A stretch of 64,000 bases of DNA, from contig JAFGGS010000016.1 of the NCBI GenBank assembly GCA_016930415.1, forward strand, positions 275,340 to 339,339, in the 5' to 3' direction. Both the position numbers and the translations under genes were made by a program. Source of the stretch: Candidatus Woesearchaeota archaeon. GTDB lineage: Archaea; Nanobdellota; Nanobdellia; Woesearchaeales; SM23-78. Below are positions 45,901-64,000 of this stretch, one piece after another. Position 1 is the stretch's first letter; each line of letters starts with the position of its first letter. The notes under the pieces were generated by a model. The model was not told where the DNA came from, did no database searches, and saw only the letters and a list, made by a program, of their open reading frames with translations.

Positions 45901-48900
45901 GACCCTGACTCCAACAGGGACGTCGAGCAGTACAGGTTCTTCACATACACAGTAAACATTAGCTGCGTCGGAGGAGAGTGCGGCGACGTCGAGGCAATAC
46001 TCGACCCGCGAGAAGATTCCGGAGAGGTATCTGAAGATATATCAGGAGAGATGTCGGGAGAGGTGTCTAGAGGAATCTCATACCTGCAGCCCCAATCGAC
46101 TCAATCCAGGCCAATAAATGGCAAGAAGCTCGGAAACCCAGAGTACCCGCATGGACTAGTCACAATCAACCCGGAGAAGCCAGTCTATGAACCTGGAGAG
46201 CGCGTGAAGCTGGCGGCAGTCGCCCTTGACAGTAAGGGAGACTTCGCGCCTGATGAAAAGCTGACATTGAGCATAGCCAGGCCTGACAAGAAGAAGGACA
46301 CGTTCGTGCTTGACCGAAGGCACGAGACCAAGCCAGGGCTTTACGAGACAGTATACCTGCCTGCCATGCAGGAAGGAACATACACAGTGACCGTCTCTTC
46401 AGATGGAAGGGTCAAGGACAGCACACAGACAACATTCGTGGTCAGCGACGACAGCCAGGATTATCCGTTCTACATCATAAGGGATGCGCCAGTAACCATA
46501 GACCCTTGGAGAGAGCATTTCAGGGCTAGCATAAGGATAGCTGCGAGAGATCCCGCGTCAAAGGCGGAAAACATCTTGTTGACGGAGAGGATCCCGCCCG
46601 ATTGGGAGATTATAGACCCGCAAGGCGCATACGTCTGGGAGTCAGAGGATTGGAAGGAGCTCGTGTGGACCATACGATTGCCTGGATTGACTGGGGAGGA
46701 CGCGCTAGCAGGATATACTGCAAGTATCCCGTTGGTATCCCCCAACAGATACGGACTGAAGGCTTCAGTGGCAAGCGGCGGAAGGACATATGACGAAGCC
46801 AGGCAATGGATGGTCGCGATCGACCCGACAGCCTATTACGTGGCGTATGCAGACACGACGAGCACATACAGCAGCGGCGGAGGATCAGCGACAGATGGAG
46901 GAAGCTACGCCAATACGGACGTGGCTGACTGCTCGGGAGGAACATGCACCCAGTCTAATTCGTGGGTGACCGGTCGAATAAACTTCAACAACGTAGAGCC
47001 CTACAACTGCATGGTCAACTCGACCTTGTCATTCAACGTGAGCAGCCTGAAGGCAATCTACATGCAGAACGTGACCATAACCTGGAACGGTTGCTGGCAT
47101 GGCACAGAGTCACTTGCAGCCAGCAGCTGCACAGGCACGTCCAACCCTGACTTCTACGACGGATCAGGAGGAGGAAGCTTCGACATGCTTATACAAAACG
47201 GCACTAGCTGGAGCAAGCTCGATTGCGTCAACACAGTAGGAAGCGAATGCGGAGCAGGAAGCATAATACCACTAGGTTCTGAAGGCGTATCGCCCTCCTG
47301 GGGAGACGCAGACACGTACCACACGTACAGGTACACTATCAAAGGGATAAACTCTACCTATCTCCAAAACAACAACCAGACGATAAACATAATGTGGAGG
47401 ATGTGGGGAGACGGCACTTGCGGAGACACCGACAGCGAGGACGACATACAGATGGCCATAGACTACGCCAATCTCAGCGTCGAATGGGCATACCTGACGA
47501 AGAGCGGCATGATATCAACAATCGCAGGCACAGAACCCTTCTACACGACAAGCCCCAACCCGCAGGACAAGGGAGACGTGAGCTGCCTATCAGACATGAT
47601 ATCGGGCAAGACCTGCACTGTCACATGGTCAGTCAACGCCTCAGGAGGCATAAACACGACTCACGAGTTCTACGTGATAGCCAACGTGACACAATACCCC
47701 TTATACGTCAACAACAGCGAATCGACTCATATATACATTACTATAAGGGACACCTCAGGGGTTCCGCCAGTGACGACCCTTGTATCCCCCGCCCACAACT
47801 CAGCGGTCGCGAACACAACAGTCGTATTCAACTGCTCAGCTACAGACAACAATGGCCTGGTAAATGCGACTCTTTACGGCAACTTCAGCGGGACGTGGTC
47901 ATCCGACGGGACCAACCCCTTCGGAGGCACCAGCAACAGCACAACCTTCAGCAGAACGCTAAGTGAAGGCACGTACATCTGGAATTGCCTAGCGTACGAC
48001 GACGATGGCAACTACGATTGGGGCAACAGCAATTACACAGTGACTGTCGACGTCACCAAACCTAACATAACCTTGGTCAACCTTGCGCCCGGCCAGGAGA
48101 TAACCAGCGGAAGCATACAGTTCAACTTCACGGCAAGAGACAACCTCGACCCTACATTGACATGTAACCTGACAGTGGACGGCGCATTCAACAACACGAA
48201 CATGCCGGCCACGAACGGGGCCTTGACATCAAGCCTGGTCACGGGGCTGGCCCAAGGGACACATTGGTGGAACGTGACCTGCTGGGACGACGCTGGAAAC
48301 ACCAATGTAAGCGAGAACAGGAACTTCACCATAGTAGATCTCCCACCGACAGTCGTCCTGAACACGCCAAACATGTACTCCCAGAACTATCCAGTCATAT
48401 CGCTATCATACACGCCGAATGACAACAATGGGATCGTGAACGCGACGATCTACATCGACAGCCAGATCAACCAGAGCGAGACAGCAGTAGACAACGGCGA
48501 GCCAAATGAGTTCGACGTGTACGGCCTCACAGAAGGATGGCATAACTGGACCGTGAACGTGACTGACGTGAGCAACCTATCGGCTCAAGCGCCCTGGATA
48601 TGGTTCATAATAGACTTCACCCCGCCGCAGATCAACGTGTACGCCCCTGCCAACAAGACCACTACCAACAATACGGACCTGTTCAACTTCTCAGTCACAG
48701 ACAACCTCCACACCAACGCGTATTGCAACATAACTATAAACGGAGTGGTATGGGATGTGAATTTCCAGGTCCAGAACGGGACTAACGTGTCCAGGACGAT
48801 AAGCAACATCCCTGACGGCAACAACTACTGGAACATCACCTGCTGGGACAACGCGAGCAACAGGAACACTAGTGAGACGAGACTGCTCAACATAAGCGCT

Positions 48901-51900
48901 CCTCCATACGTCACCCTGGACTACCCGCCGCCGAACTATACTCAGGCCGGAAGCACGCTAATGTTATACTACACTCCAAGCGACAACACCAACGTGACCA
49001 ACTGTACCCTGATAATAAACGGCGCGAACAACCAGACGAACGACACCATAATCAACAACCAGCAGCACAACTTCACGCTGACAGGCCTCACTCAGGCAGA
49101 GTACAACTGGACCGTGAACTGCTCAGACAATCTGGGACTGTACTACGCGCCCGAGCAAAGAAAGTTCATAATAGACTCGCAAGAGCCGAGCATCATGCTC
49201 AACGCGCCGGCGCCGAACCAGACAATAATCTCCAGGTGGATCAATTTCAACTTCACGGCGACAGATAACGTAGACCCAATCCTGATGTGCAATCTAACAA
49301 TTGACGGCACAGTCCGATGGATAAACGCCAATGCGCCTTCAGGGACCCCGGTAAACAACACCATAAACATAACGTTCGACGGCCTCCACTTCTGGAATGT
49401 CACTTGCTGGGATGATTCAGGAAACACCAATACCAGCCAGAACAGGAACTTCACGACCTCAAACCCGCCGGACATCACGCTCAACTACCCGCCAAACGGT
49501 TCATACGTGAACTATTGGCAGAACGTGACGTTCAACTACACCCCCTCTGACAGCGACGGCCTAGGCACTGCGTGGCTTATCATAAGCGGGACCAAGCAAG
49601 GCACTGACACCAGCCCTGACAACTATGTAGAGAACAAGATCACCCACAACTTCACGGCAGACGGAATCTACATCTGGACCGTGAACGTGACCGACACGAT
49701 AGGGCTTGAAGGAACAGCATCACCTGCCAGAACAATAATCGTTGACACTACCCCTCCCAACATAAGCATCATAACCCCATATGAGGGATACACAGCCAGT
49801 TGGAACAACGTCACATTCACCTTCAACGCAACAGACCTCTTAGATAGCGAAGTCGTGTGCAACGTATCCGTGGACGGCACGGCTTACTGGGACAATATCT
49901 CAGTAGAGAACACCACCAGCTTCACGTACTACTACGGCCTACGCGACGGAAACCACAACTGGTCTGTCTGGTGCATCGACAACGCGACCAACACGGCGAC
50001 CAGGCTTATAAACTTCACTGTGGACGCGCCACCTAACGTCACGCTCATATTCCCAAGCAACGGCTATAGAACCTACAACCAGACTATCAACTTCACGTAC
50101 ACTCCGGCCGACTTCTTCGGCTTCGACAACTGCTTGCTCTACCTGAACGGCGCTTACAGCAGGACAGACTATAATATAGAGAGGAACGTGATAAACAACT
50201 TCACCCTGGTAAGCATGAGCGAGGGTGACTACAACTGGACCGTGCTATGCACTGACGAGACTCCAGACAGCAACACGCACATGGCAGACTGGCAGAACTT
50301 CTCCATAGACATATCCGGGCCCACAATCTCGCTGGACGTGCCGAACGAGGGTGACTTCATAAACGACAACGACGTATACTTCAACTGGACCGCTACAGAC
50401 TACATAGGGACCCAGGTTAACTGCTCACTTTACATAGATGATGCCTTCAACAGCTCCCAGCAGCTTATCAGCGGGAGTAGCTTCAGCATAGTAGTGTACG
50501 ACCTGACTGAAGGCCCGCACAACTGGAGCGTGAACTGCTCAGACAACATCGGGAACTGGAGAGTCAGCGACATCAGGAACTTTACGATCAACGCGCCAGA
50601 CCTGTACATAAACACAAGCCTGTTGACATTCAACAACACCAACCCTGATCTTAACGAGCAGATAATGATAATAGCGAACGTCTCCAACATAGGAGGAGTG
50701 CCGGCGATGAACGCCTTCGTCGAGTTCTGGGACGGCGACCCCGGAGCCGGCGGGACGTATATAGGCAACGCTACCAAGAACGTGACCCAAGGGAACTTCA
50801 GCCTCTTCACAGTAAGCTGGACAATAACAGCAGGGCACCACACAATATACTTCCTCGCTGATCCATACCTGGCCTTGGTCGAACAGAACGACAGCAACAA
50901 CAACGCCACCATTAACATCTCGGTGCTCTCGGCCAACATCACAGCCCCGCCTAGCGGGAGCATGTTCAACGTAAGCTACGCTAATATCTCCTTCAACATG
51001 ACAGACTACACTGGAGGAAGCATCAACTACACCATATTCGTGAACGGCGCGGTCAACGCGACAGGATCGGCTACTGACCAGGATAACATGACAGTGCAGC
51101 TGTACTTCGCCACAGACGGCACGAAGACAATAATATTGCAAGCCAAGGATGGCCTTGGAAGGGCGAAGAACAGCACGCCAGCAACAATATACGTGGATAC
51201 CAGCGCCATGCCCATGCAGTTCATCACGCCGACCCCGCCAAACAACCATCTCCAGAGCACCACGAGCGTGATCATCAACGTGTCGCACTCAGAACCGAAC
51301 CCGGACGCCATCAAGCTATACTGGAACGGAGCCCTTAACATCTCGCAGAACTACTCAGGATCATACACTAACTTCACGCTAACAAGCCTAGGGGATGGGA
51401 TATACAATTACTACGTCTGGGCTAACGACACCTTTGGGTTCTCCAACCAGACAGAGACCAGGATATTAAGAGTAGACCTGAACCCTCCGATGATAATCCC
51501 ATTATCGCCGCTTGAGGACAGCACAGTGGCCAGCAACGCAGTCGAGTTCCTGTTCATGATAAACGACTCAAGCAGGTACGCGAACTGCAGCCTCTACATC
51601 AACGACACTTTCAACAAGTCGCTCTATAACATGCCGACCAACGCCAACGTCTTCTTCGCGCTGGAGATGGAGGACGGGGAGTACAGCTGGTACGTGAATT
51701 GCTCAGACGCTTTCAACAGGAGCAACGTATCTGACACAATCAACTTTACGGTGATGCAGTCGTATCCAGTATGGTCTAACATATGGTATGAGACCCATGA
51801 TTCAGACTGGGCAAACGAGACCGCGTACATAGACCTCGCCCCAGAGGATGACTTCACAGAGAACTTCAACAACTTCGAGCTTGACGCAGGAGACCTGTTC

Positions 51901-54900
51901 GCAGTGGTGAACGCGACGTCCCCGCTCATAGGAGGACTAGGAGGGATAATAACGCCGGGAACGCTGTGGTACAACGGGACATACCAGACAGAGGCGGTCC
52001 TGGCAGGATACCTCACCTGGAAAGTATACCTGACTAATGAGAGCGGAGACTACCTGATAGCACAGTACGGCGATGATAGCACGGGAGGAGTGGTGCTTGT
52101 AGACGACCCATTCCCGCAGTTCTCGCAGTCATCACAGAACGTGCCGACAGCCTGGATGGTAAAGCCTCTTGACAGGCTCAGGCTCGTCGTAGACATATAC
52201 AACGCAGACAGGCTCAACGAATACTATCATTACTGGGACGACAGGTCAGACTCCAGGATAGAGTTCGCGAACTTCATAGTAATAGGAGAAGTCAACGTGA
52301 CCATAGTAGAGCCTGCGAACAACATATCAACAGTTCCAGGAGAGATTTTCAACCAGACCTGTGAGGTAGATTGCCTTTATGGGACCTGCGTGAACACGTA
52401 CGTCTACGCCCAATACAACTCTACCCTGCCAATCAGCACCAACTGGACCAACATAAGCGGAAGCGGAAACCTGAAACTGAATAACGGAACGAACCCAGTC
52501 TTCCTGGGAAACATCAGCGCAGGCAAGACCAACGTCACGTTCGCGATCAACGGAACGACGGCCTCGATAAACAATGTGAGATGCTACGTCAAGACAGACT
52601 ACGATGACGACCTGAGCGACGAGACCAGAGAGATCGTGGTGAGCGACTTCGACGCGCCGACAGTCAACCTGAACTGGCCCACAGACAGGTCAGCCCACCC
52701 ACTCCAGAACATAACACTTAACTTCACAGTGACCGACAACGTGGCTCTCGCCAACTGCACGCTCTACTTCGACGGGACGTACAACCAGACCAAGTACTCC
52801 GCGAACCTCACCAATGGAGCGATCAACAACTTCACGCTGACGTACCTGACTGAGGGCAACCACACCTGGAACGTGACTTGCCAGGACACCAGCGGAAACA
52901 TAGGCAACTCCACTCAATGGATTTTCGTCATAGACAGGACTAGACCGGTCGTGACGCTTCTCCTGCCACCCGACACTGAGAGCCTAGTGGCCACAGCAGT
53001 GTATCTCAACTTCACAGTCACTGATAACATTGATGATTCGCTGACATGCAACCTCACGCTTGACGGCACAGTCATAAGGACTGCCTTCGAGGTGCAGAAT
53101 GCCAGCAACTCAAGCACGCTGGCAACAAGCCTCTCAGAAGGGACGCATTACTGGAACGTGACCTGCTGGGACAACGCGAGCAATATCCAGAACAGCAGCA
53201 CGTGGAGCTTCAGCACGTACGAAGCTCCAATCATAACCCTGATAAGGCCTGCCAACAACAACATAAGCAACAATCCCAACCAGACGCTCTTCTTCAACGT
53301 GAACGACTACACAGGCATCGAGAACTGCAGCCTGATACTGGACGGTGCGCTGAACCAGACAAAGTACAACTCTGAGATAACCAACAACGCGACCAACAAC
53401 TTCACGCTAACAGGGCTGAACGGGACATACTCCTGGGCCATCAGCTGCTACGACAACACGACAGTCCAAGCCCAGAACACCACCCAGACCTGGAACTTCA
53501 TAGTCGATATCGACCCGCCACAGCCAAGCATACTCACCTCCAGCGGGACCTGGTTCAACACTGCGACGCCCCAGATACAGTTCAACATCACAGACAACTA
53601 CGACCTGCTGATAAACTACACGCTGTACGCAAACGGGATTGAGAACATAAATGGAACAGTCGCCAACGCGAGTCTCGGAAGCCAAAATCTCAACACCTTG
53701 ACTCCGGATGGCGAGTACACCATAATCCTGCAGGGAAAAGACGACGCTAGCAACGTGCAGAACAGCTCAAACATCACGATATACGTGGACACGACCAAGC
53801 CATGGATCAACCTGAGCGCGCCCCCGCCCAACGAGAACTTCAACGCGACCTCTATACAGTTCAACTTCACAGCACACGACAACATGGCAGGATTCCTGAT
53901 ATGCAACTTCACCTTGAGCAACGGGATGAACGATCTCAACCTGAACCTGAGCAACGCAACGCTCCAGAGCATCAACAAGAGCGGGTTCGTGTCAGGGATA
54001 TACTACTGGAACGTGAGCTGCTACGACATAGCAGGCAACTGGAACACGAGCGCGACTTGGAACTTCACGATAAACACGCCAGACGTGACGATAACCTCCG
54101 CGAACATCACCTTCAACGAAAGCGAGTTCGAGGAAGGGAGGAACATCACAATCCACGCGAACGTCCAGAATATAGGGGGGGTTCCGGCCTACAATTTCAC
54201 AGTGCAGATCTGGCACGGGGACCCTGACGCGGGCGGAACGCAGATAAACGGCAACCTGACAATAACAAGCCTCGCTCCTAACGCCAACTACAGCGTGAGC
54301 GTGACCTACTCCCCGATAATAGGGCCGAACAACATATACGTCGCAGTAGACCCACCGACAGCAAGCAACGGAAGCATCTCAGAGGAGAACGAGAGCAACA
54401 ACAAGGCCAACAACACGTTCGAAGTCCCGCTCTACCACAAGTATGCAGGGAACATAACAGGCCTCATTGAGATCGAGAAGCAGAGCGTGAACCTGACATT
54501 ATACACTTGGAGCCCAGGAAATACCAGCGGAAGCCACATATTCGTCGCTGACCTGGAAGGAATAATCAACTTCCTAAGCCTACAAGCGATCGGCCGCGAC
54601 ACAACCAACCAGAGCACGGCAGACGACTTTGAAGAGATAGACACCGCCATAGGGAGCACAAACCTAAGCGACTCTATAAACAGGACGTACACGACTGCGG
54701 GCGCTCCAAAGGAGACCGGCATCATGAACATATACGGGTCAGACATACTTAACATCCCGCTAATCAACAGCTCAGCCAACACCACCTTCAAGACAGGCAT
54801 TCTCTGGGATGAAAGCGACGGAGGCCTAGAATACAACGGGACCCAGGATATCGTGTTCGTGAGCGAGACCAGCATAGGGAAGCAAGGAAGCAAAGGGATA

Positions 54901-54987
54901 TACGACTTCGAGATAGCAGTCCCTGCATTGCTACGGGACTACAACGCAGGAGGCAGCAGCGTAGCCTTCTATGTGGAGCTGAGATGA
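36931..54987 (+). CDS. Giant (6018 aa) modular secreted protein: MG2-like, DUF2341-like, Ig-like and CARDB-like modules
   Basis: N-terminal signal sequence; two DUF2341-like domains (WWSTNYGYRSMINVTNN..., WWNESFWYRQSINLTEN...); 15 or more Ig-like repeats from 47.8 to 54.0 kb; two CARDB-like domains (about 50.6 and 54.1 kb); dense N-x-S/T sequons and paired Cys. Confidence 0.9.
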   Translation: MRIGKAGARTAKTANSMAMIVIVLAITLLTTSAAANNNVTLTIPKTTYYLGERVTITITGALTDHSLKVQTPTKSYKFSGEMNGQIPFIPKEDGNYRVILTKGQTPLQDIAFKVSSAEQTSPQEQSQVPPTPENASESEENKTSQQEEQVQQEMQQEGQTEPRQTQKNRFIRTEKKTYSLGETVTADISADPLEYQLYYEYSGLIQKHMGDFRKITLRPKGIGLHLLILRDKNNSLVEEHEITVDEPEGKPDGNLSESDQPQAQENTTSTGTTNTTGMTNTTNTTGSTITKGAAPSKEYHDARSLIALSDGTGQPVQAEVQAAASQPGIDTQATENQSSQTSQDRPLRPGKYDVVMDLSQAIGSGKIRSISLSDLQYNGSALDLRVEEVPLASIKETEEDRIGSEIISAYAIDPTRLNFTRGTLTATANGRELWKCAEWNFTARTCEGNWAKVMSLKPGQDYELLLSPQDPAYAETGVASINTNQSVYQPGQVALITIVALDTQGHLVPAAQVNVTVTIPGSTDPIQVRQTEEPERGIYEFEYNQTLTEGTYNMQATVLGAEVNSTMTSNFLVSSAEEFEIIRTTPHTTDPFMTDFQTIIRVTSRNYTSFNYTETLPANFTIIDAGGAAVVASSESILLTWSMTNNTEITYTAVPPLVTPELYELRGTIGYYAANETYETYEEARAWLLAVDPQYDTTSSVEMKVLPLDEVTFAIMYIDSSSQDVSIQVLNTTGSVLVSETDLNLDVDLDGRVDGAVINSTHFAVGVYDSSGGGNVEYYIYDRYGNQDLGATQVDTGAGRTVDIGMASIGDRLAFAWTVDDGSNDVNGEIWTLGGASVTAEWNVDGNAAPDDIRRNDVDAAGISSTRWVVAWFDDNSDAVRISLYDQNGGSGNEVAGPVTPDAAVGGTAGVAVTALRNGYVAMAYYDSVDDDISMVIYDTSADSFATVYGPADINTTVGTDSRLAISEVESDGQSMIALVWWNQAIDAIQATVYNSTGGLVTPQFIVDSDPASSTYPLLSVAGAVNHSGVSLCSNTFIVAYNNDTGDASYKQYYVNGTDWNGVCHKNSPSTVPTDIRCDGSTNCNIVVTGSVVINSTGSTDPDGDNITYHIEAWLQNVSSAEHTTDLSFNSTIPSISYDSYSSSSISASTTLSWAHTIGGGSNRLLVVGVAAEDATSAQTDVTGVTYNSVAMMPLNEEVTGSSYYENVELWYMLESDLPAAGSHTIQVTIGGNAEDIIGGAVSLSGVAQQAPEANTTNEDNQAGNAYIYTSITTLTDNAWLVDVVGSGNAIGGFTTATTGQTERWDTVAASSRGAMSTKEVSTAGLTWMNWTAAGSNRITHAVAAFAPTAVDVNSSYTTYPDADGDYDQVEDVTVTIEVDSYDPSGSYAESSLYPDVQLELYNGSSWVSVGLFGLNNTYLGDSLDTTNRIFKLNTTQASVLASWATSSNQDARIRGVNLDYSGASSQDQINITTVWVNVTGRRWTEIGNHTETTAFTWNTQNITDQTCVDLRSRAIDYDGSATFSSYYTKGACMNLSAFPPPLLSNIQCFRTGTGWTACSNILFGSTMEQVRATCTSQMGGNITNVSFSLSNSQDAHTYFDVTATTNSSSVWTYDIPDLTIRDSGNFNLHVTCRENPTTEENVDWWIPFGTLSAQMNYPTTHINVTRNRLFNWSSNITCSGGECGWMNATLDPIEDWWSTNYGYRSMINVTNNDGSTALQAGHTVNFTLNHSGLVSQGKSLSSGNDVRVTYYNGTSHVEIDRINLSAWNTATTVIAFRLQESLPASSVGANYTVYYGNGGAGSPPQDPSGVYFIYDQFNDSSIGSDWSTADNDLVAGTSFAEGNDYLQIDAGGADTWTGNDEFGAVYQQITGDFDAYARINYQEAADPWAKAGIMARNDMTTPASSTGYVFMAETPGNDFSFQRDSNNNGYLDANTQGGATTYPGWVRLRKVGTSFTGYYATTNPESGGTWNTIASATITSTLTTQDIGLAVTSHAGTTLSNVTFEFIKVTLVIGTSPTAQLGEEETSGKGVIPMYSGMPFYTDTANPMVAANNSCLFNMTSGGVCTTEWDVNATGSAGSTWTFYAQYESLNYSTNMSVKNTTLINITIISNQAPSMVFVNISPSKPGPSTPLNCTFRVHDSSYNDPLLANISWYESGTLRYSTIWSVVNGQTTVHTLSPGNTTAGETWWCGVTPSDHELTGNQSNSTSVLVLASEPPVINSIQCQESGGSWSSCSNVLFNDNLTGVRAQCTDPDGYVLNATFRLDNVFDSTTLFSNFTSDNSSYPGYWYFNNTDTVIRDSGLFTLNVTCWDNSTTPGTGSTNWTIPWGTITGNLINPGSDVNVTQDKYFNFTARITCSGGECGYINATLDPSNWWNESFWYRQSINLTENSGNTLTDYQFAVTLNTATPISQGHMRSDCGDLRFVNGSGTMLSYWIESGCNSANTLVWVKHSLAASSSQLIYAYYGNSTVLNASNATATLFIYEDMTTAPTGTMTGSAWYDSGNGRVELTNTGGNLLGYLYYLQNPGPGFYGRYETWAGGGSGADSTWFGVHDTSVSSGREDIVNGGYHFTVDEWQDRVAFTKSTVDNGAPIAYWGSSTLDNSQWHNFTVYFYNSGASANALIYYDQVLRVNGTDNSPQSTAGNYFFVGGRTGGSTNYHYVRNIRVMKYVNPQPTATLGTEISQTKGIIPMHTGDPFYTITANPMYAANNSCLTDMRGGDSCDTTWVVNATGITGVPWEFFVTYSSMNYSDYGVSNVTKKINITITANMAPNVSYIFLNPEYPLPNEDLYCNFTIYDPNFFDTLRANVSWYRGTTLMHSQIVSASNGVETYGMLGYGNTSLYDVWHCGVKPYDEDTSGLQVNSSNVTIDLTKPPSIHEIQCQRNNATWTGCGNITFYDNITGIRVNCTTDYMPIKNMTVNITNIPDAYTFFTNTTTTNISHWWYVNKTLLINNSGTYTIGAVCMNNESGMDDYSVSWTVPWGHFVVTQIDPDSNRDVEQYRFFTYTVNISCVGGECGDVEAILDPREDSGEVSEDISGEMSGEVSRGISYLQPQSTQSRPINGKKLGNPEYPHGLVTINPEKPVYEPGERVKLAAVALDSKGDFAPDEKLTLSIARPDKKKDTFVLDRRHETKPGLYETVYLPAMQEGTYTVTVSSDGRVKDSTQTTFVVSDDSQDYPFYIIRDAPVTIDPWREHFRASIRIAARDPASKAENILLTERIPPDWEIIDPQGAYVWESEDWKELVWTIRLPGLTGEDALAGYTASIPLVSPNRYGLKASVASGGRTYDEARQWMVAIDPTAYYVAYADTTSTYSSGGGSATDGGSYANTDVADCSGGTCTQSNSWVTGRINFNNVEPYNCMVNSTLSFNVSSLKAIYMQNVTITWNGCWHGTESLAASSCTGTSNPDFYDGSGGGSFDMLIQNGTSWSKLDCVNTVGSECGAGSIIPLGSEGVSPSWGDADTYHTYRYTIKGINSTYLQNNNQTINIMWRMWGDGTCGDTDSEDDIQMAIDYANLSVEWAYLTKSGMISTIAGTEPFYTTSPNPQDKGDVSCLSDMISGKTCTVTWSVNASGGINTTHEFYVIANVTQYPLYVNNSESTHIYITIRDTSGVPPVTTLVSPAHNSAVANTTVVFNCSATDNNGLVNATLYGNFSGTWSSDGTNPFGGTSNSTTFSRTLSEGTYIWNCLAYDDDGNYDWGNSNYTVTVDVTKPNITLVNLAPGQEITSGSIQFNFTARDNLDPTLTCNLTVDGAFNNTNMPATNGALTSSLVTGLAQGTHWWNVTCWDDAGNTNVSENRNFTIVDLPPTVVLNTPNMYSQNYPVISLSYTPNDNNGIVNATIYIDSQINQSETAVDNGEPNEFDVYGLTEGWHNWTVNVTDVSNLSAQAPWIWFIIDFTPPQINVYAPANKTTTNNTDLFNFSVTDNLHTNAYCNITINGVVWDVNFQVQNGTNVSRTISNIPDGNNYWNITCWDNASNRNTSETRLLNISAPPYVTLDYPPPNYTQAGSTLMLYYTPSDNTNVTNCTLIINGANNQTNDTIINNQQHNFTLTGLTQAEYNWTVNCSDNLGLYYAPEQRKFIIDSQEPSIMLNAPAPNQTIISRWINFNFTATDNVDPILMCNLTIDGTVRWINANAPSGTPVNNTINITFDGLHFWNVTCWDDSGNTNTSQNRNFTTSNPPDITLNYPPNGSYVNYWQNVTFNYTPSDSDGLGTAWLIISGTKQGTDTSPDNYVENKITHNFTADGIYIWTVNVTDTIGLEGTASPARTIIVDTTPPNISIITPYEGYTASWNNVTFTFNATDLLDSEVVCNVSVDGTAYWDNISVENTTSFTYYYGLRDGNHNWSVWCIDNATNTATRLINFTVDAPPNVTLIFPSNGYRTYNQTINFTYTPADFFGFDNCLLYLNGAYSRTDYNIERNVINNFTLVSMSEGDYNWTVLCTDETPDSNTHMADWQNFSIDISGPTISLDVPNEGDFINDNDVYFNWTATDYIGTQVNCSLYIDDAFNSSQQLISGSSFSIVVYDLTEGPHNWSVNCSDNIGNWRVSDIRNFTINAPDLYINTSLLTFNNTNPDLNEQIMIIANVSNIGGVPAMNAFVEFWDGDPGAGGTYIGNATKNVTQGNFSLFTVSWTITAGHHTIYFLADPYLALVEQNDSNNNATINISVLSANITAPPSGSMFNVSYANISFNMTDYTGGSINYTIFVNGAVNATGSATDQDNMTVQLYFATDGTKTIILQAKDGLGRAKNSTPATIYVDTSAMPMQFITPTPPNNHLQSTTSVIINVSHSEPNPDAIKLYWNGALNISQNYSGSYTNFTLTSLGDGIYNYYVWANDTFGFSNQTETRILRVDLNPPMIIPLSPLEDSTVASNAVEFLFMINDSSRYANCSLYINDTFNKSLYNMPTNANVFFALEMEDGEYSWYVNCSDAFNRSNVSDTINFTVMQSYPVWSNIWYETHDSDWANETAYIDLAPEDDFTENFNNFELDAGDLFAVVNATSPLIGGLGGIITPGTLWYNGTYQTEAVLAGYLTWKVYLTNESGDYLIAQYGDDSTGGVVLVDDPFPQFSQSSQNVPTAWMVKPLDRLRLVVDIYNADRLNEYYHYWDDRSDSRIEFANFIVIGEVNVTIVEPANNISTVPGEIFNQTCEVDCLYGTCVNTYVYAQYNSTLPISTNWTNISGSGNLKLNNGTNPVFLGNISAGKTNVTFAINGTTASINNVRCYVKTDYDDDLSDETREIVVSDFDAPTVNLNWPTDRSAHPLQNITLNFTVTDNVALANCTLYFDGTYNQTKYSANLTNGAINNFTLTYLTEGNHTWNVTCQDTSGNIGNSTQWIFVIDRTRPVVTLLLPPDTESLVATAVYLNFTVTDNIDDSLTCNLTLDGTVIRTAFEVQNASNSSTLATSLSEGTHYWNVTCWDNASNIQNSSTWSFSTYEAPIITLIRPANNNISNNPNQTLFFNVNDYTGIENCSLILDGALNQTKYNSEITNNATNNFTLTGLNGTYSWAISCYDNTTVQAQNTTQTWNFIVDIDPPQPSILTSSGTWFNTATPQIQFNITDNYDLLINYTLYANGIENINGTVANASLGSQNLNTLTPDGEYTIILQGKDDASNVQNSSNITIYVDTTKPWINLSAPPPNENFNATSIQFNFTAHDNMAGFLICNFTLSNGMNDLNLNLSNATLQSINKSGFVSGIYYWNVSCYDIAGNWNTSATWNFTINTPDVTITSANITFNESEFEEGRNITIHANVQNIGGVPAYNFTVQIWHGDPDAGGTQINGNLTITSLAPNANYSVSVTYSPIIGPNNIYVAVDPPTASNGSISEENESNNKANNTFEVPLYHKYAGNITGLIEIEKQSVNLTLYTWSPGNTSGSHIFVADLEGIINFLSLQAIGRDTTNQSTADDFEEIDTAIGSTNLSDSINRTYTTAGAPKETGIMNIYGSDILNIPLINSSANTTFKTGILWDESDGGLEYNGTQDIVFVSETSIGKQGSKGIYDFEIAVPALLRDYNAGGSSVAFYVELR

Positions 54988-55075: not shown

Positions 55076-58000
55076 ATGATAAGGAAAAAAGGGAGTGAGA
55101 TGGAAAGGAAAAAGAGGCAGGATGCAGGTGAGAGGAAGCGCTCCACTAACCTTATGCTTGTCTTGCTGCTGATAGTGATCATACCGACATCTATAATAGT
55201 CCTAGCTACCATATTCGACGCAGGGAACTACTGCACGCTAGGCCCGAACTGCGACTGCAGTTCGGAAATCGCCCAGTGCGGAGGGTCTTACGAGGTAGCT
55301 AACAACTTCAACACCATAGACAGCTGCCAAGACGGGGCTGCCAAGTCCAAGTACGACTTCGTGAACAACATCAGGACGACCGACCTCAACAAGTCAGGGC
55401 AGAACACTGAATACGAAGGTGGCGACAAGATAGAGTCTGAGATCCAGTTCAGGTGCTACCCAGGGGACTTCATAGTCTTCGCATACACCAACTACTCGAA
55501 CGCCACTACAGTGAACTGGACCAAGATATACGGCACGACCTGCACGATAAACGGATACGCAACCTACTTCCATAACCACACGCTGGACGACAGGGAAGGC
55601 TGGCACGGATTCAGGTACATAATCGCATACCAAGGCAGCAGCTCGATGACCTGCGCCCAATCATACCCTTACTCTGACAACGACGACATAGCATTATACG
55701 TCCACGCTCAGCCTGACAGCAGTCCCCCGACAATCAACAGCATAACGCCGGCTGAGGGGGAGAACATAGAGTACAGCGTCGGCATGACAGTCAACCTGAT
55801 CGTGAACGCGTCAGACACGGCAGGCGTAAAGAACGTGACCGCCAAGCTTGAGTGGACTGGGGAAACCCGTTACTTCAACTTGTCCAACGCCTCACTGGCA
55901 GGAGGACTCTTCAACGTGACAATGAATAACCTGACGAACCTGACAAGGTACAACGTGACAATCAACGCGACAGACAACCTCAACAACTCAGGCCTGACCA
56001 CCTCGTACTTCTTCATAGTCAACAACGCGTTCATGAACATAACATCACCCTCATTCGGGGTAACTTATCCTTACACGAACGTCACGCTCACGTTCAAGAT
56101 AGGCGACAACCTGACCCCTTTCCAAGAAGTGTACTATTACCTGAACGGGGGGAACAAGACGACACTGCCGCTGAGCGTGTCAGTCATCAACAACAACAGC
56201 GAAACAGTGACGATGCAGCATAACAACAGCCTGGATAACCTGTCGCAATCGTTCATAACCTACGAGTCGATGGAGATAAGCGAACTGATGCTGAGAGCGG
56301 CTAGCGGGACTCCCGAGCTCTTCAGCACGAACATACTGCTCCGCGGAGGAAACTCCACAAATCCCAACAGCACGACGTACAGGAACGTCACGCTCAACAA
56401 TTCATACGAAGGGAACCAGAGCTTCTCATGGGCCAATGCGACCTTCCAGACGCAGTTCACGCTCCAGCCAGGCACATGGTACTGGATCACCATGGCGCAA
56501 GCCAACACGACCCACTTCTTCAGCTGGGAAGCCAACCTTGACGGCTACTCGGAAGGCAGTTGTTCCGCAAACAACAGCATAGACCTCCTGTTCAAGGCCA
56601 TAGATATCTACAAGTACAGCACAATCGTCAACTCAACCGAGGGGAGTAACACGATAGAGGTGTGCGAGAGGAACTCAGCCAGCAACTCAGACTGCTCACT
56701 GACGAACTACAAGGCAGACACAAACCCGCCAGTCCTGGCAGTTCCCACAGAGACCTCTGACCCGATGGAGTTCGGGAACACGTCATCCCAGTTCATAAGG
56801 ATAACAGTCACTGACGCCGTGAGTTCCATAAACACGGCAGTGATAGAGACTGAGGGCACCAACCACACTATGGACGGCCTGGGAGGAGGACAGTACGAGT
56901 ACAGGTGGGACATATACAATACCACAGAGATAGGCATGCACTATTACAGGATCTACGCCAACGACAGCGTGGACAACAGGAACAACACAAGGATGTACAA
57001 CTTCACAGTCAGGGATAGCCTCCCGCCGGAGACCACGCTGCTGAACTACACTCCCAACACGAATTCAGACCTGGACCCTGAAGTCAACATCTCGATAAAC
57101 TACACCATAAGCGACTACGTGCAGGTCACTGAGGCCAGGCTGCAGTACGCCACCGCAAGCAACGCGGCAATCAATAACTGGACAAACGTCACTATGAGCA
57201 ACATCAGCTCGAACTTCTACTCTAACTTCACGCCTCTCGACGAGGGGAACTGGTCTTTCAGAGCTTATGCAATCGACCCTTACAACAATAGCGTGAACAC
57301 CAGCATGAACAACATAAGCGTCTTCTACGACAGGACCTGGGTGTTTAGCCCTGACGAGATGGAGACAGTCTTCACCACTGAGGGCGCGAGCGTGAGCCTC
57401 GGCAACATCACCATAAACAACACAGGAGACACCCAGCTGAACTTCACGCTGGCACAGACAAGCGGACTCCCCACAGTCACCATTACACCCAACAGTATAA
57501 CGATAGGCATAGCTGACAGCCAGATGATAAACCTGTCAACCACTGCGCCAGCGCAGAACCCGACGCCTTATCCATACAGCATCGACATAGCATGCGACAC
57601 TTCAGGCTGCGAGAGTGCGAACGAGACAGTCTACGGCTACATGATGGTCGGGCAGGGCGGCCCGTTCATAACACACTCTGAATTCCTGTACAGCTACGAA
57701 GTGGTGCAGGGAGACAGGAGCGTGCCCCTGAACGTGACCTTGAAGAACATCGGGAACGAGACAGCGTACAACATAAGTGTCGATTGGGTGCTTCCAACAG
57801 GATGGTTCTCTGACGATAATGTGAGCGCGTTCTTCGCCAACATGACACCCTACGCAACCACGTTCGTGACTGAGAGCCACGGAATAGTCGGATCAGTCCT
57901 CCTGAACGCGACCGTGGGACTGCAAAACCTGACAGTAAACATAGTATACTACACGACTGTGGGGGCGCAGAGGACCTACACAATAACAAAGACAGTGGAT

Positions 58001-59587
58001 GTAGTATACCCGCAGGATTATGAACCGCCAGAGACAGGAGGAGGAACCACCACCACGACAGGCGGAGGCGGCGGTGGAGGCGCAGGTACTGGAGGAGGAG
58101 GCATCCCGCCAGCGCCGAAGAGCTTCAACCTCACGATCGACGTCCCTGAGAGGATCACCATATTAAGAGGCCAGAACAGGACCATACAGGTCAACCTGAC
58201 GAACGACAACCAAGCGTACTTCTACGACTTGACGCTAAGGCTTGAAGGCTACCCGACTAGGAGATACTCCATAAGCCCTGCAAACATCAGCGTCCTAAAC
58301 CCTGGAGAGACCAAGGCGTTCAACGTATATATAGACGTGCCTGTCTATATGGGATACTCCCTCAACCTGTTGATGCTAAGCTTCAAGGGTAAGAGCCAGG
58401 AGCGCCTGAACGCATCCAAAAGCAGCTATGAGCAGACCAAGACTATGACGCTCATAGTATCGGAGATTGACGAGAGCGAGTCTGCAGGCTGCATCGCAGA
58501 GTCCGAGGCCTTCCTGCTGGAGATGCAGGCAGAGAACTTCAGCACCGCGAGAGTAGAAGCGCTCCTGGCAGAGGCTAAGGACGCATTCGCGACTCTCGAC
58601 TACACCTTAGTCAAGAACAACTGCGAAGCCATAAAGACCCTCAAAGAGACCTCGTTCGAGCTCAGGCAGAGGATGTCAAGCCTGCTTGAGGAGGCAACCA
58701 ACGCCCAAAAGGAAGGGTATGACATGAGAAACATCCTCAGGCTCCTCAACATATCCCAGGAGATGTTCCAGACAGGAGAGTACGAGAAGGCGCTCGAAAG
58801 AGTCCAGAGGACAGAGGAGGCCATGGCGCTCCAGGTCCAGACAGAAGACGCAAAACTAGGCAGGCGGCTTGCAAGGTTCCTCTCCAAATACTGGTGGGCA
58901 GTCATAATCTTCCTGGGAATAATGACTTATGTGAGCGGGATATACTATCAGAAGCACGTCCAGCAGCAGATAAAAGACAGGCTAGAGAGCCTCGGCAATG
59001 AGGAGGAATCAATAACAGAAGTCATGAAGAAGCTCCAGGAAGGATACTTCGCCCAGAAGAATGTGAGCACGAAAGTGTATGACCTGACAATGCAGGACTA
59101 CAAGAACAGGCTGGCAGAGATCGAGAACGAGAAGATCGACCTGAAGAACAAGAAGGTCAGGATGTTCAAGACTGACAACACCTACGAAGGCCTGCTCGTG
59201 CAGAAGGAGGAGATGCTCGCGCTAGTACGGGAACTCCAGGAGAACTACTTTGTCAACACCAAGATCGACAAGAGCACCTACACCAGGGCTTTCACGACCT
59301 TCAAGAGGAAACTCGCAGAGATCGAGAAGAAGATAAAGGTGAAGAAAAGGGAGATTGATACGAAGGAAGCAAGAAAGGGTGAAGAGACGGCGCAGGCCCG
59401 GGAAGCCCAGACCACAAGACCAACAGCCTCGCATGAGCCTGACAAGAAAAATATACTTGAGCAGAGGAGCGAGATGAACCCTAAAGTGAAGAGAGAGAAG
59501 AGGCCTGAAGGCGACGAAGAGAAAGATGATAAGAAGAACAAGAAGAAAAAGAGGCTCTCATACCTCCACAAGAAGCTCAACGAATGA
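55076..59587 (+). CDS. Membrane surface protein: Ig/NEW3-like ectodomain, C-terminal TM, cytoplasmic coiled-coil tail with duplicated helical motif
   Basis: N-terminal TM LMLVLLLIVIIPTSIIVLATI; NEW3-like GDRSVPLNVTLKNIGNETAYNISV; Gly/Thr-rich linker; TM WWAVIIFLGIMTYVSGIYY; basic tail. Confidence 0.85.
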   Translation: MIRKKGSEMERKKRQDAGERKRSTNLMLVLLLIVIIPTSIIVLATIFDAGNYCTLGPNCDCSSEIAQCGGSYEVANNFNTIDSCQDGAAKSKYDFVNNIRTTDLNKSGQNTEYEGGDKIESEIQFRCYPGDFIVFAYTNYSNATTVNWTKIYGTTCTINGYATYFHNHTLDDREGWHGFRYIIAYQGSSSMTCAQSYPYSDNDDIALYVHAQPDSSPPTINSITPAEGENIEYSVGMTVNLIVNASDTAGVKNVTAKLEWTGETRYFNLSNASLAGGLFNVTMNNLTNLTRYNVTINATDNLNNSGLTTSYFFIVNNAFMNITSPSFGVTYPYTNVTLTFKIGDNLTPFQEVYYYLNGGNKTTLPLSVSVINNNSETVTMQHNNSLDNLSQSFITYESMEISELMLRAASGTPELFSTNILLRGGNSTNPNSTTYRNVTLNNSYEGNQSFSWANATFQTQFTLQPGTWYWITMAQANTTHFFSWEANLDGYSEGSCSANNSIDLLFKAIDIYKYSTIVNSTEGSNTIEVCERNSASNSDCSLTNYKADTNPPVLAVPTETSDPMEFGNTSSQFIRITVTDAVSSINTAVIETEGTNHTMDGLGGGQYEYRWDIYNTTEIGMHYYRIYANDSVDNRNNTRMYNFTVRDSLPPETTLLNYTPNTNSDLDPEVNISINYTISDYVQVTEARLQYATASNAAINNWTNVTMSNISSNFYSNFTPLDEGNWSFRAYAIDPYNNSVNTSMNNISVFYDRTWVFSPDEMETVFTTEGASVSLGNITINNTGDTQLNFTLAQTSGLPTVTITPNSITIGIADSQMINLSTTAPAQNPTPYPYSIDIACDTSGCESANETVYGYMMVGQGGPFITHSEFLYSYEVVQGDRSVPLNVTLKNIGNETAYNISVDWVLPTGWFSDDNVSAFFANMTPYATTFVTESHGIVGSVLLNATVGLQNLTVNIVYYTTVGAQRTYTITKTVDVVYPQDYEPPETGGGTTTTTGGGGGGGAGTGGGGIPPAPKSFNLTIDVPERITILRGQNRTIQVNLTNDNQAYFYDLTLRLEGYPTRRYSISPANISVLNPGETKAFNVYIDVPVYMGYSLNLLMLSFKGKSQERLNASKSSYEQTKTMTLIVSEIDESESAGCIAESEAFLLEMQAENFSTARVEALLAEAKDAFATLDYTLVKNNCEAIKTLKETSFELRQRMSSLLEEATNAQKEGYDMRNILRLLNISQEMFQTGEYEKALERVQRTEEAMALQVQTEDAKLGRRLARFLSKYWWAVIIFLGIMTYVSGIYYQKHVQQQIKDRLESLGNEEESITEVMKKLQEGYFAQKNVSTKVYDLTMQDYKNRLAEIENEKIDLKNKKVRMFKTDNTYEGLLVQKEEMLALVRELQENYFVNTKIDKSTYTRAFTTFKRKLAEIEKKIKVKKREIDTKEARKGEETAQAREAQTTRPTASHEPDKKNILEQRSEMNPKVKREKRPEGDEEKDDKKNKKKKRLSYLHKKLNE

Positions 59588-59685: not shown

Positions 59686-61644
59686 ATGGATATGTCTCAG
59701 TATAAGCAGGAATTTCTCTCAGAGGCAAGAGAGCACCTTGAACAGATAAACGAAGGTCTCCTCGCCCTGGAAAAAGACCCTTCTGACTCAGAGAACATCA
59801 ACAAGGTGTTCAGGTCATTTCACACGCTGAAAGGCAACTCAGGAGCCATGGGCTACCAGAAGTTCGCTGAGCTCGCACACGTACTGGAGGACCTGCTCTC
59901 AAGGATACGCGAAGGAAAAATCCAGATAGGCCAGGAGATAATGGACTTAGTCTTTGAGGGATGCGACGTGATCGACAGCGGACTCACCGCCATAGAGAAG
60001 AACACTCCTGAGGAATTCAGCGCAGAAGGGATAATAAGTGAGGTACAGAAGTTCACGCAGGAGAGGCAGGATACGGCCAGCATAAGCATGGAGGCCAAAG
60101 CCCGCCTAAACGAGAATGACCAGATAATGATCGATCAGAGGAAGAGCGCAGGAAACAACGTCTTCCGCCTGGTTACGGTCTTCGAGTCAGGGAACCAGCT
60201 CAAGGGGCCGAAAGCGATGGTCATGCTCAGGCTAATCAGGGGAGCAGGGGAAGTCATAAAGACAAACCCTTCTGAGGAGAGCGTAAGGGAAGGACGTTTC
60301 AGCACAGAATTCGAGACCCTACTCTCCACCAGGAAGAGCAAGGAGGAGATAACAGAGATAGTCAATAGGCTCACGGGAATCAAGCACATCTTCGTCCTCA
60401 CAATGGAGGAGACATATGAGAAGCCCAAGGAGACTGTGCACGAAGAGAAGGAGCATGCAAAGAGCCAGATACTCAAAGGCCACCACGATGAGGTCCTAAA
60501 GCAGATACAAAGCGTAAGGGTCAACATGAACAAGCTTGACAAGCTCATGAACCTCGTTGGAGAACTGCTCATAAGCAACATCAGGCTCCAGGACATAGAC
60601 AAGAAACAGGACTACACTCATCTCAAGACCACGCTAAAGGCGATCGACAGGCTTATACTTGACCTTCAGGACGAGGTCATGACTGTCCGCATGATACCCA
60701 TAGGCAACGTATTCAACAGGTTCACCAGGATGGTCCGGGACCTGTCAATGAAGGAAGGCAAGAAAGTCAACCTGATAATAGAAGGATCAGAGATGGAGTT
60801 CGACAGGACAGTCCTAGACCAGATCGGAGACCCGCTCGTGCACATATTAAGGAACTGCGTAGACCACGGCATAGAGACTCCTGAAGAGAGGATGAACGCC
60901 GGAAAGCCAGAAGTAGGCACGATCAAGCTGATAGCCAAGAGGGAGAAGAACAGTGCGACCATCAGGATAAGCGATGACGGCCAAGGGATAGACCCTAAGC
61001 TCATCAAAGAGACTGCCATCAAGAAGGGCAAGATAACCGCAAAAGATGCAGAGAAGATGAGCGAACAAGAATTGCAGATGCTCGTCTTCAAGCCAGGAAT
61101 GAGCACCAATAAGATAGTCACTGAAGTGAGCGGACGCGGAGTCGGGATGGATGTGGTCATCACGAAGACCAAAGAGCTAGGTGGAAGCGTAAGGCTCCAC
61201 TCAGAAGTCGGGAAAGGCACCAGGGTCACGCTAACGCTCCCTCTTAGCGTCGCGATCATAAGCGCACTGCTCATCAGGGTGGCGAATGACATCTTCGCAA
61301 TACCTCTGAACGCGATTGACCAGACAGTCGACCTGGAGACAAGTAACATAAAGACCATCCAAGGCCACGAACTCTTCGTGCTCAGGGGGAATGAAATACC
61401 CTTGTTCTGGCTCCACGACCTACTAGGAACCGCACCGCAGGAGAAGAAAGATAAGTTGACGGTGCTCATAGTCAACAAAGATGAGGAGAAAGTAGGCTTG
61501 GTTACTGACGAAATATTATCCCAGCAGCAGATACTGATAAAAGGTCTCCAGGACAGCGTGAAAGGACTGAGAGGAGTGTCCGGCGCGACAATACTTGGGG
61601 ATGGCAGTGTAGCGCTCATACTAGAAGTGGACACTTTAGTATGA
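59686..61644 (+). CDS. cheA: Chemotaxis histidine kinase CheA
   Basis: HPt FRSFHTLKGNSGAMG; N box HILRNCVDHGIE; G1 ISDDGQGID; G2 GRGVGMDVV; C-terminal CheW-like domain. Confidence 0.96.
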   Translation: MDMSQYKQEFLSEAREHLEQINEGLLALEKDPSDSENINKVFRSFHTLKGNSGAMGYQKFAELAHVLEDLLSRIREGKIQIGQEIMDLVFEGCDVIDSGLTAIEKNTPEEFSAEGIISEVQKFTQERQDTASISMEAKARLNENDQIMIDQRKSAGNNVFRLVTVFESGNQLKGPKAMVMLRLIRGAGEVIKTNPSEESVREGRFSTEFETLLSTRKSKEEITEIVNRLTGIKHIFVLTMEETYEKPKETVHEEKEHAKSQILKGHHDEVLKQIQSVRVNMNKLDKLMNLVGELLISNIRLQDIDKKQDYTHLKTTLKAIDRLILDLQDEVMTVRMIPIGNVFNRFTRMVRDLSMKEGKKVNLIIEGSEMEFDRTVLDQIGDPLVHILRNCVDHGIETPEERMNAGKPEVGTIKLIAKREKNSATIRISDDGQGIDPKLIKETAIKKGKITAKDAEKMSEQELQMLVFKPGMSTNKIVTEVSGRGVGMDVVITKTKELGGSVRLHSEVGKGTRVTLTLPLSVAIISALLIRVANDIFAIPLNAIDQTVDLETSNIKTIQGHELFVLRGNEIPLFWLHDLLGTAPQEKKDKLTVLIVNKDEEKVGLVTDEILSQQQILIKGLQDSVKGLRGVSGATILGDGSVALILEVDTLV

Positions 61645-61767: not shown

Positions 61768-62124
61768 ATGGCTAAGATAATAGTTGTGGATGACTCCAAC
61801 CTGATTGCCGCGGTGATCTCGCATTTCGCAAAAGGATATGATTGTGAGATCCTGACAGCAAGAGACGGGGAAGAGGCGATCGAGAGGTACAAGTCCGAGA
61901 AGCCGGACCTGGTCTTCCTGGACATAAAGATGCCAAAGATGAACGGAATACAAGCTCTTGAAGAGATCAGGAAGATAGATCCTGAAGCGAAAGTCGTCAT
62001 GTGCACTGCGCTGAAAGAGAAGGCCCAGGAGGAGAAGGCCAAGGCATTAGGGGCGTGCGGCTACATCACTAAGCCCTTCACGAAAGAGGACATCACAAGC
62101 ATACTGAAGAAATACCTGAAATGA
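61768..62124 (+). CDS. cheY: CheY-type response regulator 1
   Basis: IIVVDDSN, LVFLDIKMPKMNG, VMCTA, ITKPF. Confidence 0.93.
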   Translation: MAKIIVVDDSNLIAAVISHFAKGYDCEILTARDGEEAIERYKSEKPDLVFLDIKMPKMNGIQALEEIRKIDPEAKVVMCTALKEKAQEEKAKALGACGYITKPFTKEDITSILKKYLK

Positions 62125-62164: not shown

Positions 62165-62530
62165 ATGAAAATACTAATCGTGGATGACTCCGCGTTCATG
62201 CGGACAATGATAAAAAATGTTCTTAAAGACGGCAACCACGAGATATTTGAGGCAGGAAACTTCGACGAAGCAGTCAAGGCTTTCAAGGAGAACAAGCCAG
62301 CACTCATCTTCCTCGACGTCATAATGCCCGGAAAGAACGGAGTGGAGACGCTAAAAGAGATAAAGAACATCGACAAGGAAGCCCACGTGGTGATGTGCAC
62401 ATCAATCGGGGGGCAACAGAAGATCATAGACGAGTCGGTTTCGGCAGGGGCGGATGACTTCATCATAAAGCCTTTCAAGGCAGAGGACATACAGAAAGTA
62501 GTGAACAACATAGCCAATCCTGCAAAATAA
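62165..62530 (+). CDS. cheY: CheY-type response regulator 2
   Basis: ILIVDDSAFMR, LIFLDVIMPGKNG, VMCTS, IIKPF. Confidence 0.93.
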   Translation: MKILIVDDSAFMRTMIKNVLKDGNHEIFEAGNFDEAVKAFKENKPALIFLDVIMPGKNGVETLKEIKNIDKEAHVVMCTSIGGQQKIIDESVSAGADDFIIKPFKAEDIQKVVNNIANPAK

Positions 62531-62545
62531 GCCCGGGTGATATAT

Positions 62546-63199
62546 ATGGAAGAAAAAGAAACCGGGCAAAAAGTAAAGCTTACATCACTTGAACTGGACG
62601 CACTCAAAGAGATGGGAAACATCGGGACTGGAAATGCAGCGACATCCCTCTCAAAGTTCATCAACAAGAACGTCGACATGAACTTTCCCGAGACAAAGTT
62701 CGTCCACGTGAGCAAGTTCTCAGAGACAGTAGGCGGCCCAGAGAAGATGGTGGTGGGAATCTACCTCCAGATCAGCGGTGAAGTCCATGGCGAAGCCATG
62801 TTCTTGTTCCCTGAAAAAGGGGCTTATGAGCTAATCGACCTCATACTGTCCAAACCACTTGGGACGACCAAGCGAATGGATGACATGGACAAGTCAGCCT
62901 TCATGGAACTATCCAACATACTGACAGGATCATTCCTGAACGCTCTTGGAAACATGCTCGAAGCGAAGATACTCCCGTCAGTCCCGCACGTCGCAGCAGA
63001 CATGGCACAGACCCTTCTTGACTTCATACTGATAAAGATAAGCAAGTGCGCAGACACGCTTCTCTACGTTAAGACAGGAGTCAACGTGGAAGGGCATAAG
63101 ATAGACGGCGAGTTCACAGTCCTCTTCGACCAGGACTCCCTCAAGAAGATAATCTCAAAGATGCATGACAAGTACGGCCTTGAGAGCCCAGGAGCTTAG
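62546..63199 (+). CDS. cheC: CheC-family CheY-P phosphatase, both active-site motifs intact; start likely 62546
   Basis: DALKEMGN-x22-P and SAFMELSN-x22-P both fit [DS]xxxExxNx(22)P. Confidence 0.92.
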   Translation: MEEKETGQKVKLTSLELDALKEMGNIGTGNAATSLSKFINKNVDMNFPETKFVHVSKFSETVGGPEKMVVGIYLQISGEVHGEAMFLFPEKGAYELIDLILSKPLGTTKRMDDMDKSAFMELSNILTGSFLNALGNMLEAKILPSVPHVAADMAQTLLDFILIKISKCADTLLYVKTGVNVEGHKIDGEFTVLFDQDSLKKIISKMHDKYGLESPGA

Positions 63200-63316: not shown

Positions 63317-64000
63317 ATGACCGACATAGTAGTGGACATGGGATCAGTGGCGCTAGGATACGAGCATGACAACCTGATATCAGTAGGACTCGGCTCGTGC
63401 GTAGGAGTGGCTCTGTACGACCCTGAAAAGAAGATAGGAGGGATGGCGCATATCATGCTTCCTAACAGCAAGGAGATACCAAGCCAGCAGATAGAAAGAA
63501 AAGCGTTGATAGCAGAAAAGGATTCCAAGATAAGAAGCAGCCTGAAAAACACACTGGCCCACCTAGGATTCGCATCAATCACAGAGACAGAGGAGAAGGA
63601 AGGCACGCTTGCAAAATACAAGGAGACCAGCCCCTCAATCGCATTCATAAGCGCGTTCCTCCCGCCGACAAACGGGGTGGACACTGCAAAAGCCATACTC
63701 TCGAAAGAGCCAAACGCGCCCATAGTGATAATGAGCCCGCCAACGGACAGGACCACAATATCATATTATAGCCAAGAAGGCGCAAAAGAAGTCATGATCT
63801 CTCCCTTCACAGAAGAGAGAGTCAGGAGCGTGAGTGAATTCATCCTGGGAATCAACCAACTCAAGTTCGCTGACAAAGCGATACAGGTCCTGGTAGAGCT
63901 CATGGTCAACAGAGGAGCCGACAAGCGCCGCCTGGTAGCCAAGATAGCTGGAGGAGCCCACATGTTCCCCACACTCATGGACGAGGAGGTCATAAACATA
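63317..64000 (+). CDS. cheD: CheD-like protein with an inserted degenerate receiver-like domain; runs off the window end
   Basis: Hand translation from ATG 63317: MTDIVVDMGSVALGYEHDNLISVGLGSCVGVALYDPEKKIGGMAHIMLP ... [insert] ... KFADKAIQVLVELMVNRGADKRRLVAKIAGGAHMF; no in-frame stop to the window end. Confidence 0.9.
   Translation, partial: MTDIVVDMGSVALGYEHDNLISVGLGSCVGVALYDPEKKIGGMAHIMLPNSKEIPSQQIERKALIAEKDSKIRSSLKNTLAHLGFASITETEEKEGTLAKYKETSPSIAFISAFLPPTNGVDTAKAILSKEPNAPIVIMSPPTDRTTISYYSQEGAKEVMISPFTEERVRSVSEFILGINQLKFADKAIQVLVELMVNRGADKRRLVAKIAGGAHMFPTLMDEEVINI

Follow-up and report, generated by a model that had tools for sequence, protein, structure and literature searches.

A degenerate receiver domain nested in the core of an archaeal CheD, and its candidate roles

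At the end of the window (the whole stretch of 64,000 nucleotides analyzed here, G000:C1:275340-339339, where G000 is the genome carrying it) lies an open reading frame that resembles CheD at both ends and the response regulator CheY in between. An earlier note on this DNA had read the frame from 63317 onward as a CheD with a receiver nested in its core. Is the CheD core really interrupted by a receiver, where does the insert come from, and what might it do there?

Anatomy of the interrupted CheD

The frame from 63317 is still open at 64000. Its continuation on the same contig reaches a stop and completes a CheD of 280 aa (L001 964-1806). PF03975 matches this protein with 98.8 bits at residues 180-273 (cut-off 25), and PF00072 (Response_reg) matches the insert with 41.7 bits at residues 64-170, or with 44.3 bits when the insert is taken alone (cut-off 30.2). 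The Thermotoga maritima CheD chain 2f9z_C, which scores 133.6 bits with the A1 profile, is matched in two pieces, residues 3-52 and 183-272 of the query aligning with 4-53 and 61-146 of the chain. With a profile of five insert-bearing CheDs, 130 query residues stand where 2f9z_C has 7, and this gap in the CheD match is covered by the T. maritima CheY structures 4iga and 1tmy (E ~1e-22). The insert is about 125 aa long and enters after the IMLP motif, five residues past the catalytic His45. Cys28 and His45, which the earlier note had described as retained, are both present and do not vary among the five insert CheDs that are complete. Pfam and the two-piece structural match agree with the architecture that the note had proposed, and we regard a CheD core interrupted by a receiver as close to certain. 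The coordinates are collected in Table 1.

Structure prediction added little to this assignment. AlphaFold was run on the 228 residues encoded in the window with alignments of 5 and 7 rows. When the alignment contained two rows each of CheY and CheD, the model had a pLDDT of 53.5, and its top Foldseek match was T. maritima CheY (TM 0.72 by target), a result that is partly circular because CheY rows were in the alignment. With CheD rows only, the pLDDT was 48.8 and Foldseek returned no receiver match. Since the models are of low confidence and take a CheY fold only with CheY rows, the assignment of the insert as a putative receiver is based on sequence.

Table 1 Features of the chemosensory gene cluster in the window
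Feature	Position in window	Strand	Remarks
cheA: Hpt, P2, dimerization, ATPase and CheW domains	59686..61641	+	P2 is a possible rival docking partner
cheY1, intact receiver	61768..62121	+	Pfam
cheY2, intact receiver, CheY group nearest the insert	62165..62527	+	Pfam, receiver tree
cheC, two ExxN phosphatase motifs, partner candidate	62537..63196	+	PF04509, PF13690; directly upstream of cheD
cheD with nested pseudo-receiver	63317..64000	+	First 228 of 280 codons in window; gene end at L001:1806
N-terminal CheD core, residues 1-56, Cys28 and His45	63317..63484	+	Matches 2f9z_C 4-53
Pseudo-receiver insert and linkers, residues 57-181	63485..63859	+	Response_reg at residues 64-170
C-terminal CheD core from residue 182, GGAHMF motif	63860..64000, runs past window	+	Profile matches

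Distribution and origin of the insert

Within the same archaeal order we sampled 353 genomes, of which 15 have a PF03975 match and 12 of these encode typical CheDs. The insert occupies the identical place in six of the 12 (G000, G039, G029, G321, G233 and G142), so that the search for further examples proposed in the earlier note yielded five more genomes. The six insert-bearing genomes belong to six different families. The copy in G142 is cut by a contig end, and those in G039, G029, G321 and G233 are complete, with 33-49% identity. A frameshift, chimeric join or mis-assembly is ruled out for practical purposes by the single open frame and by the same architecture in these five independent genomes, which also exclude chance. 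Ordinary short loops without an insert were found at L011-L014, L016 and L017 in the same order and at L023 in another order, and the six bacterial relatives (L005-L010) have no insert. No insert-bearing CheD appeared among plasmids, viral contigs, the typical CheDs from the class and phylum draws, or one other order. The same order also contains divergent CheD-like ORFs of 154 and 161 aa (L020 1183-1644 and L021 1204-1686) and a 376-aa open frame that is CheD-like in part (L022 80-1207).

A tree built from the receivers of these operons unites the six inserts in a single clade (99/98), which lies within the CheY portion beside the operon CheYs. Three insert branches are long, two of them meeting, and the order within the clade is unsure. 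In MAFFT alignments that combined CheYs with CheDs, parts of the CheYs were put in the wrong place, and to some extent this also affects the alignment used. An origin from a CheB receiver was rejected, as the CheB receivers form a separate clade (100/100) and the inserts group with CheYs. The CheD-core tree also joins the six insert CheDs, without support (49/16). Because the inserts form one clade beside the operon CheYs, the likely history is a single insertion of a CheY copy in an ancestor, followed by the loss of phosphotransfer. Family f61 contains both an insert CheD (G142) and an insert-free CheD (G141), which makes gene transfer or an old duplication possible.

Active-site residues and operon setting

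In the insert of the window protein the acidic pair reads E67-K68, S112 takes the place of the phospho-Asp, the switch is S140 and S162 replaces the Lys, so that the canonical receiver set (acidic pair, phospho-Asp, Thr/Ser, Lys) is incomplete. The earlier note had read the same residues and had counted all of them as signs of degeneration. The readings stand, and Ser140 has to be taken off the list, since Ser/Thr is the consensus at the receiver switch position (PMC12632262). The acidic pair is broken in all five readable inserts (EK, DA, DK, EH and HN), and the phosphorylation Lys is absent from all six, being replaced by S, D, N, H, N and I. The phospho-Asp is Ser in four of the six (the window protein, G039, G321 and G233) and Asp in G029 and G142. 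A pseudo-receiver is a domain that is recognized as a receiver and lacks one or more of the five residues (PMC12632262). The window insert, with a Pfam score above the cut-off and active-site residues missing, is a pseudo-receiver by this definition. The window protein, G039, G321 and G233 are in addition aspartate-less receivers, while the G029 and G142 inserts are pseudo-receivers that keep Asp and fall outside that class. Judging from these residues (E67-K68, S112 and S162 in the window protein), normal phosphorylation should be expected in none of the six inserts, as the earlier note had argued for its degenerate receiver. In G039 the CheB (L024 4567-5583) has a degenerate receiver too, with EH for DD and Asn for the phospho-Asp, and two receivers of that pathway look dead.

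The genes are ordered cheA-cheY1-cheY2-cheC-cheD-MCP-cheW, followed further downstream by cheY3-cheB-cheR1-cheR2-cheC2 and a KaiC-like gene. In all five genomes readable on that side, a cheC with both ExxN motifs lies directly upstream of the insert cheD. The insert CheDs keep the CheC-contact motif GG-(A/G)-x-(M/L/I)-F, which is GGAHMF in the window protein. The hallmarks of a CheC-CheD system are therefore present, namely a CheC with ExxN motifs and a CheD with the CheC-contact motif. The operon MCP contains Q/E pairs, and G000 also encodes an ordinary CheB. The che cluster is immediately preceded, on its own strand, by two ORFs of 6018 aa (36931-54984) and 1503 aa (55076-59584). The second CheC has only the first ExxN motif and is followed by a gene for a KaiC/DUF7504-like ATPase; this pair (L002 12853-14086; L030 4804-5990) recurs in G141, where the ATPase is 64.6% identical, and stands behind two cheR genes in both genomes. 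One CheY of G142 (L019 76-645) carries a tail of about 60 residues that is rich in proline and glutamine.

G000 is archaeal by its markers (GatE above the NCBIfam archaeal cut-offs, GatD, CDC48 and a match of 769 bits to the archaeal SSU model). The genome is small and the order deep, which may point to a DPANN-type lineage. In a survey, DPANN was reported to have no chemotaxis system (PMC9680633). CheW and CheD matches are absent from all six other species of the G000 genus, and the whole che cluster is therefore patchy in its distribution. CheF was not found in G000 or in 12 related CheD-bearing genomes, and archaellin is present in only two of the 13 (G039 and G127). A link to the archaellum was rejected on these grounds, and these archaeal chemosensory pathways seem to work without the known motor adaptor CheF.

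Candidate roles of the insert

A comparison of the three closest inserts shows 11 invariant positions out of 22 in the loops that surround the dead site vs 16 of 95 in the rest of the insert (Fisher p 0.003); the test comprised three sequences and loops chosen after the alignment had been seen. CheY2 of the same three genomes has no such bias (10/22 vs 42/95, p 1.0). The loop motifs are missing from the two inserts that have diverged most, which could reflect partial relaxation. On the C-side, the linker runs from the proline that follows the Lys site up to the CheD helix and measures 21 aa in all five complete proteins; the N-side linker has 15 aa in four and 14 in one.

CheC-family phosphatases contact CheY on its active-site face, as in the CheX-CheY complexes. 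Because the kept loops lie on this face and GGAHMF is retained, we favor, with a probability of about 0.35, a built-in CheY mimic that tunes the CheC-CheD complex by docking on CheC. The pseudo-receiver, held at a fixed geometry inside CheD, would be a permanent CheY look-alike in cis, and its former active-site face would dock on the neighboring CheC. With such a mimic, CheC and CheD would have affinity for each other even in the absence of CheY-P, or free CheY-P would meet a competitor at the CheC sites; in either case the mimic would set the amount of CheD that is free to act on receptors. In Bacillus subtilis, CheD binds CheC, CheY-P strengthens this binding, and M101/F102 of the CheD GGAxMF motif are located at the CheC interface (PMC3513319). 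In Halobacterium salinarum, a CheC/CheB/CheF subnetwork linked to CheY is organized around CheD as its hub (PMC3579733). We count for docking on CheC the CheY-like clade, the conservation in six genomes, the adjacent cheC, the loop bias and the constant linkers; against it stand the low-confidence models, the faster evolution of the insert, the divergent loops and the half of the order's CheDs that are insert-free. The earlier note had suggested that the insert offers CheC or CheA a docking surface, fixed or decoy, and this suggestion would fit the data, given the adjacent CheC, GGAHMF, the P2 of CheA and best-kept residues on the pseudo-active-site face.

Next in our order of preference, the pseudo-receiver may dock on the P2 domain of CheA and keep CheD at the receptor array, as the CheB receiver does for CheB. 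P2 is the docking domain of CheA for CheY and CheB, the P2 of the operon CheA is of the T. maritima type (PF07194), and the operon CheYs, from which the insert probably descends, are expected P2 ligands. The best-kept positions of the insert, however, are the active-site loops and not alpha4 or alpha5, and we consider array targeting somewhat unlikely. The position of the insert beside His45 and the fixed linker lengths could alternatively point to an intramolecular cap, in which the receiver lies over the CheD active site and restricts access to the deamidase until it is displaced by CheC, a receptor or some other partner. Such a cap would resemble the CheB receiver over its methylesterase, but without phosphorylation. 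The arrangement of the domains in our models is of low confidence, and the cap is unlikely in our estimation. Finally, a CheY duplicate that entered a loop and lost phosphorylation may have no specific function and be kept mainly because its clean removal is hard. The insert does diverge faster than the CheD core in every pair (15-47% vs 36-52% identity, for example, 34% vs 51% and 47% vs 52%), and the residues at the five sites vary between species. An open, alignable receiver has nevertheless been kept in six families, with constant linkers, and conservation is concentrated in the pseudo-site loops of the three closest inserts; we find a tolerated passenger improbable. The insert makes a real and probably useful variant of CheD.

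Compared with known CheDs (PF03975; T. maritima 2f9z and B. subtilis), the insert CheDs have the same catalytic Cys and His, the whole core, the GGAxMF motif and a cheC neighbor, and differ in having a receiver of about 125 aa in place of a 7-residue loop after the HxMLP motif. The insert aligns over its full length with CheY and other receivers (PF00072), belongs to the same lineage as the operon CheYs and has T. maritima CheY as its best structural relative. Unlike CheY, it is nested in an enzyme, has lost the Lys and mostly the phospho-Asp, and has a broken acidic pair. It corresponds to described pseudo-receivers and aspartate-less receivers (PMC12632262, PMC4395418), with DD2 non-acidic as in most of them, whereas it is archaeal and nested inside an enzyme. 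The main text of these two papers contains no occurrence of CheD as a partner domain. In CheB, too, a receiver shares one protein with an enzyme that modifies receptors, but the CheB receiver is N-terminal and normally phosphorylatable, while that of the insert CheD is nested and has no phosphorylation residues; the insert CheD is thus not a fused response regulator of the CheB type. No description of a CheD with a receiver, a pseudo-receiver or a fusion was found in the open-access papers searched, in line with the earlier note, which knew of no precedent.

What archaeal pseudo-receivers do is reported not to have been investigated, and the way in which any pseudo-receiver is switched has been called an open question (PMC12632262). 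Here, the pseudo-receiver sits in an enzyme with a known assay, beside the known partner CheC, and the insert-free relatives are natural controls, which makes its function directly testable. It is conceivable, though doubtful at present, that the feedback from CheY to CheD is wired into one protein, with a dead CheY replacing or competing with CheY-P at CheC. If so, adaptation would be set by intramolecular competition and not by CheY-P binding alone. Besides CheB, the insert CheD would be a second example of how a receiver can be combined in a single chain with an enzyme that modifies receptors.
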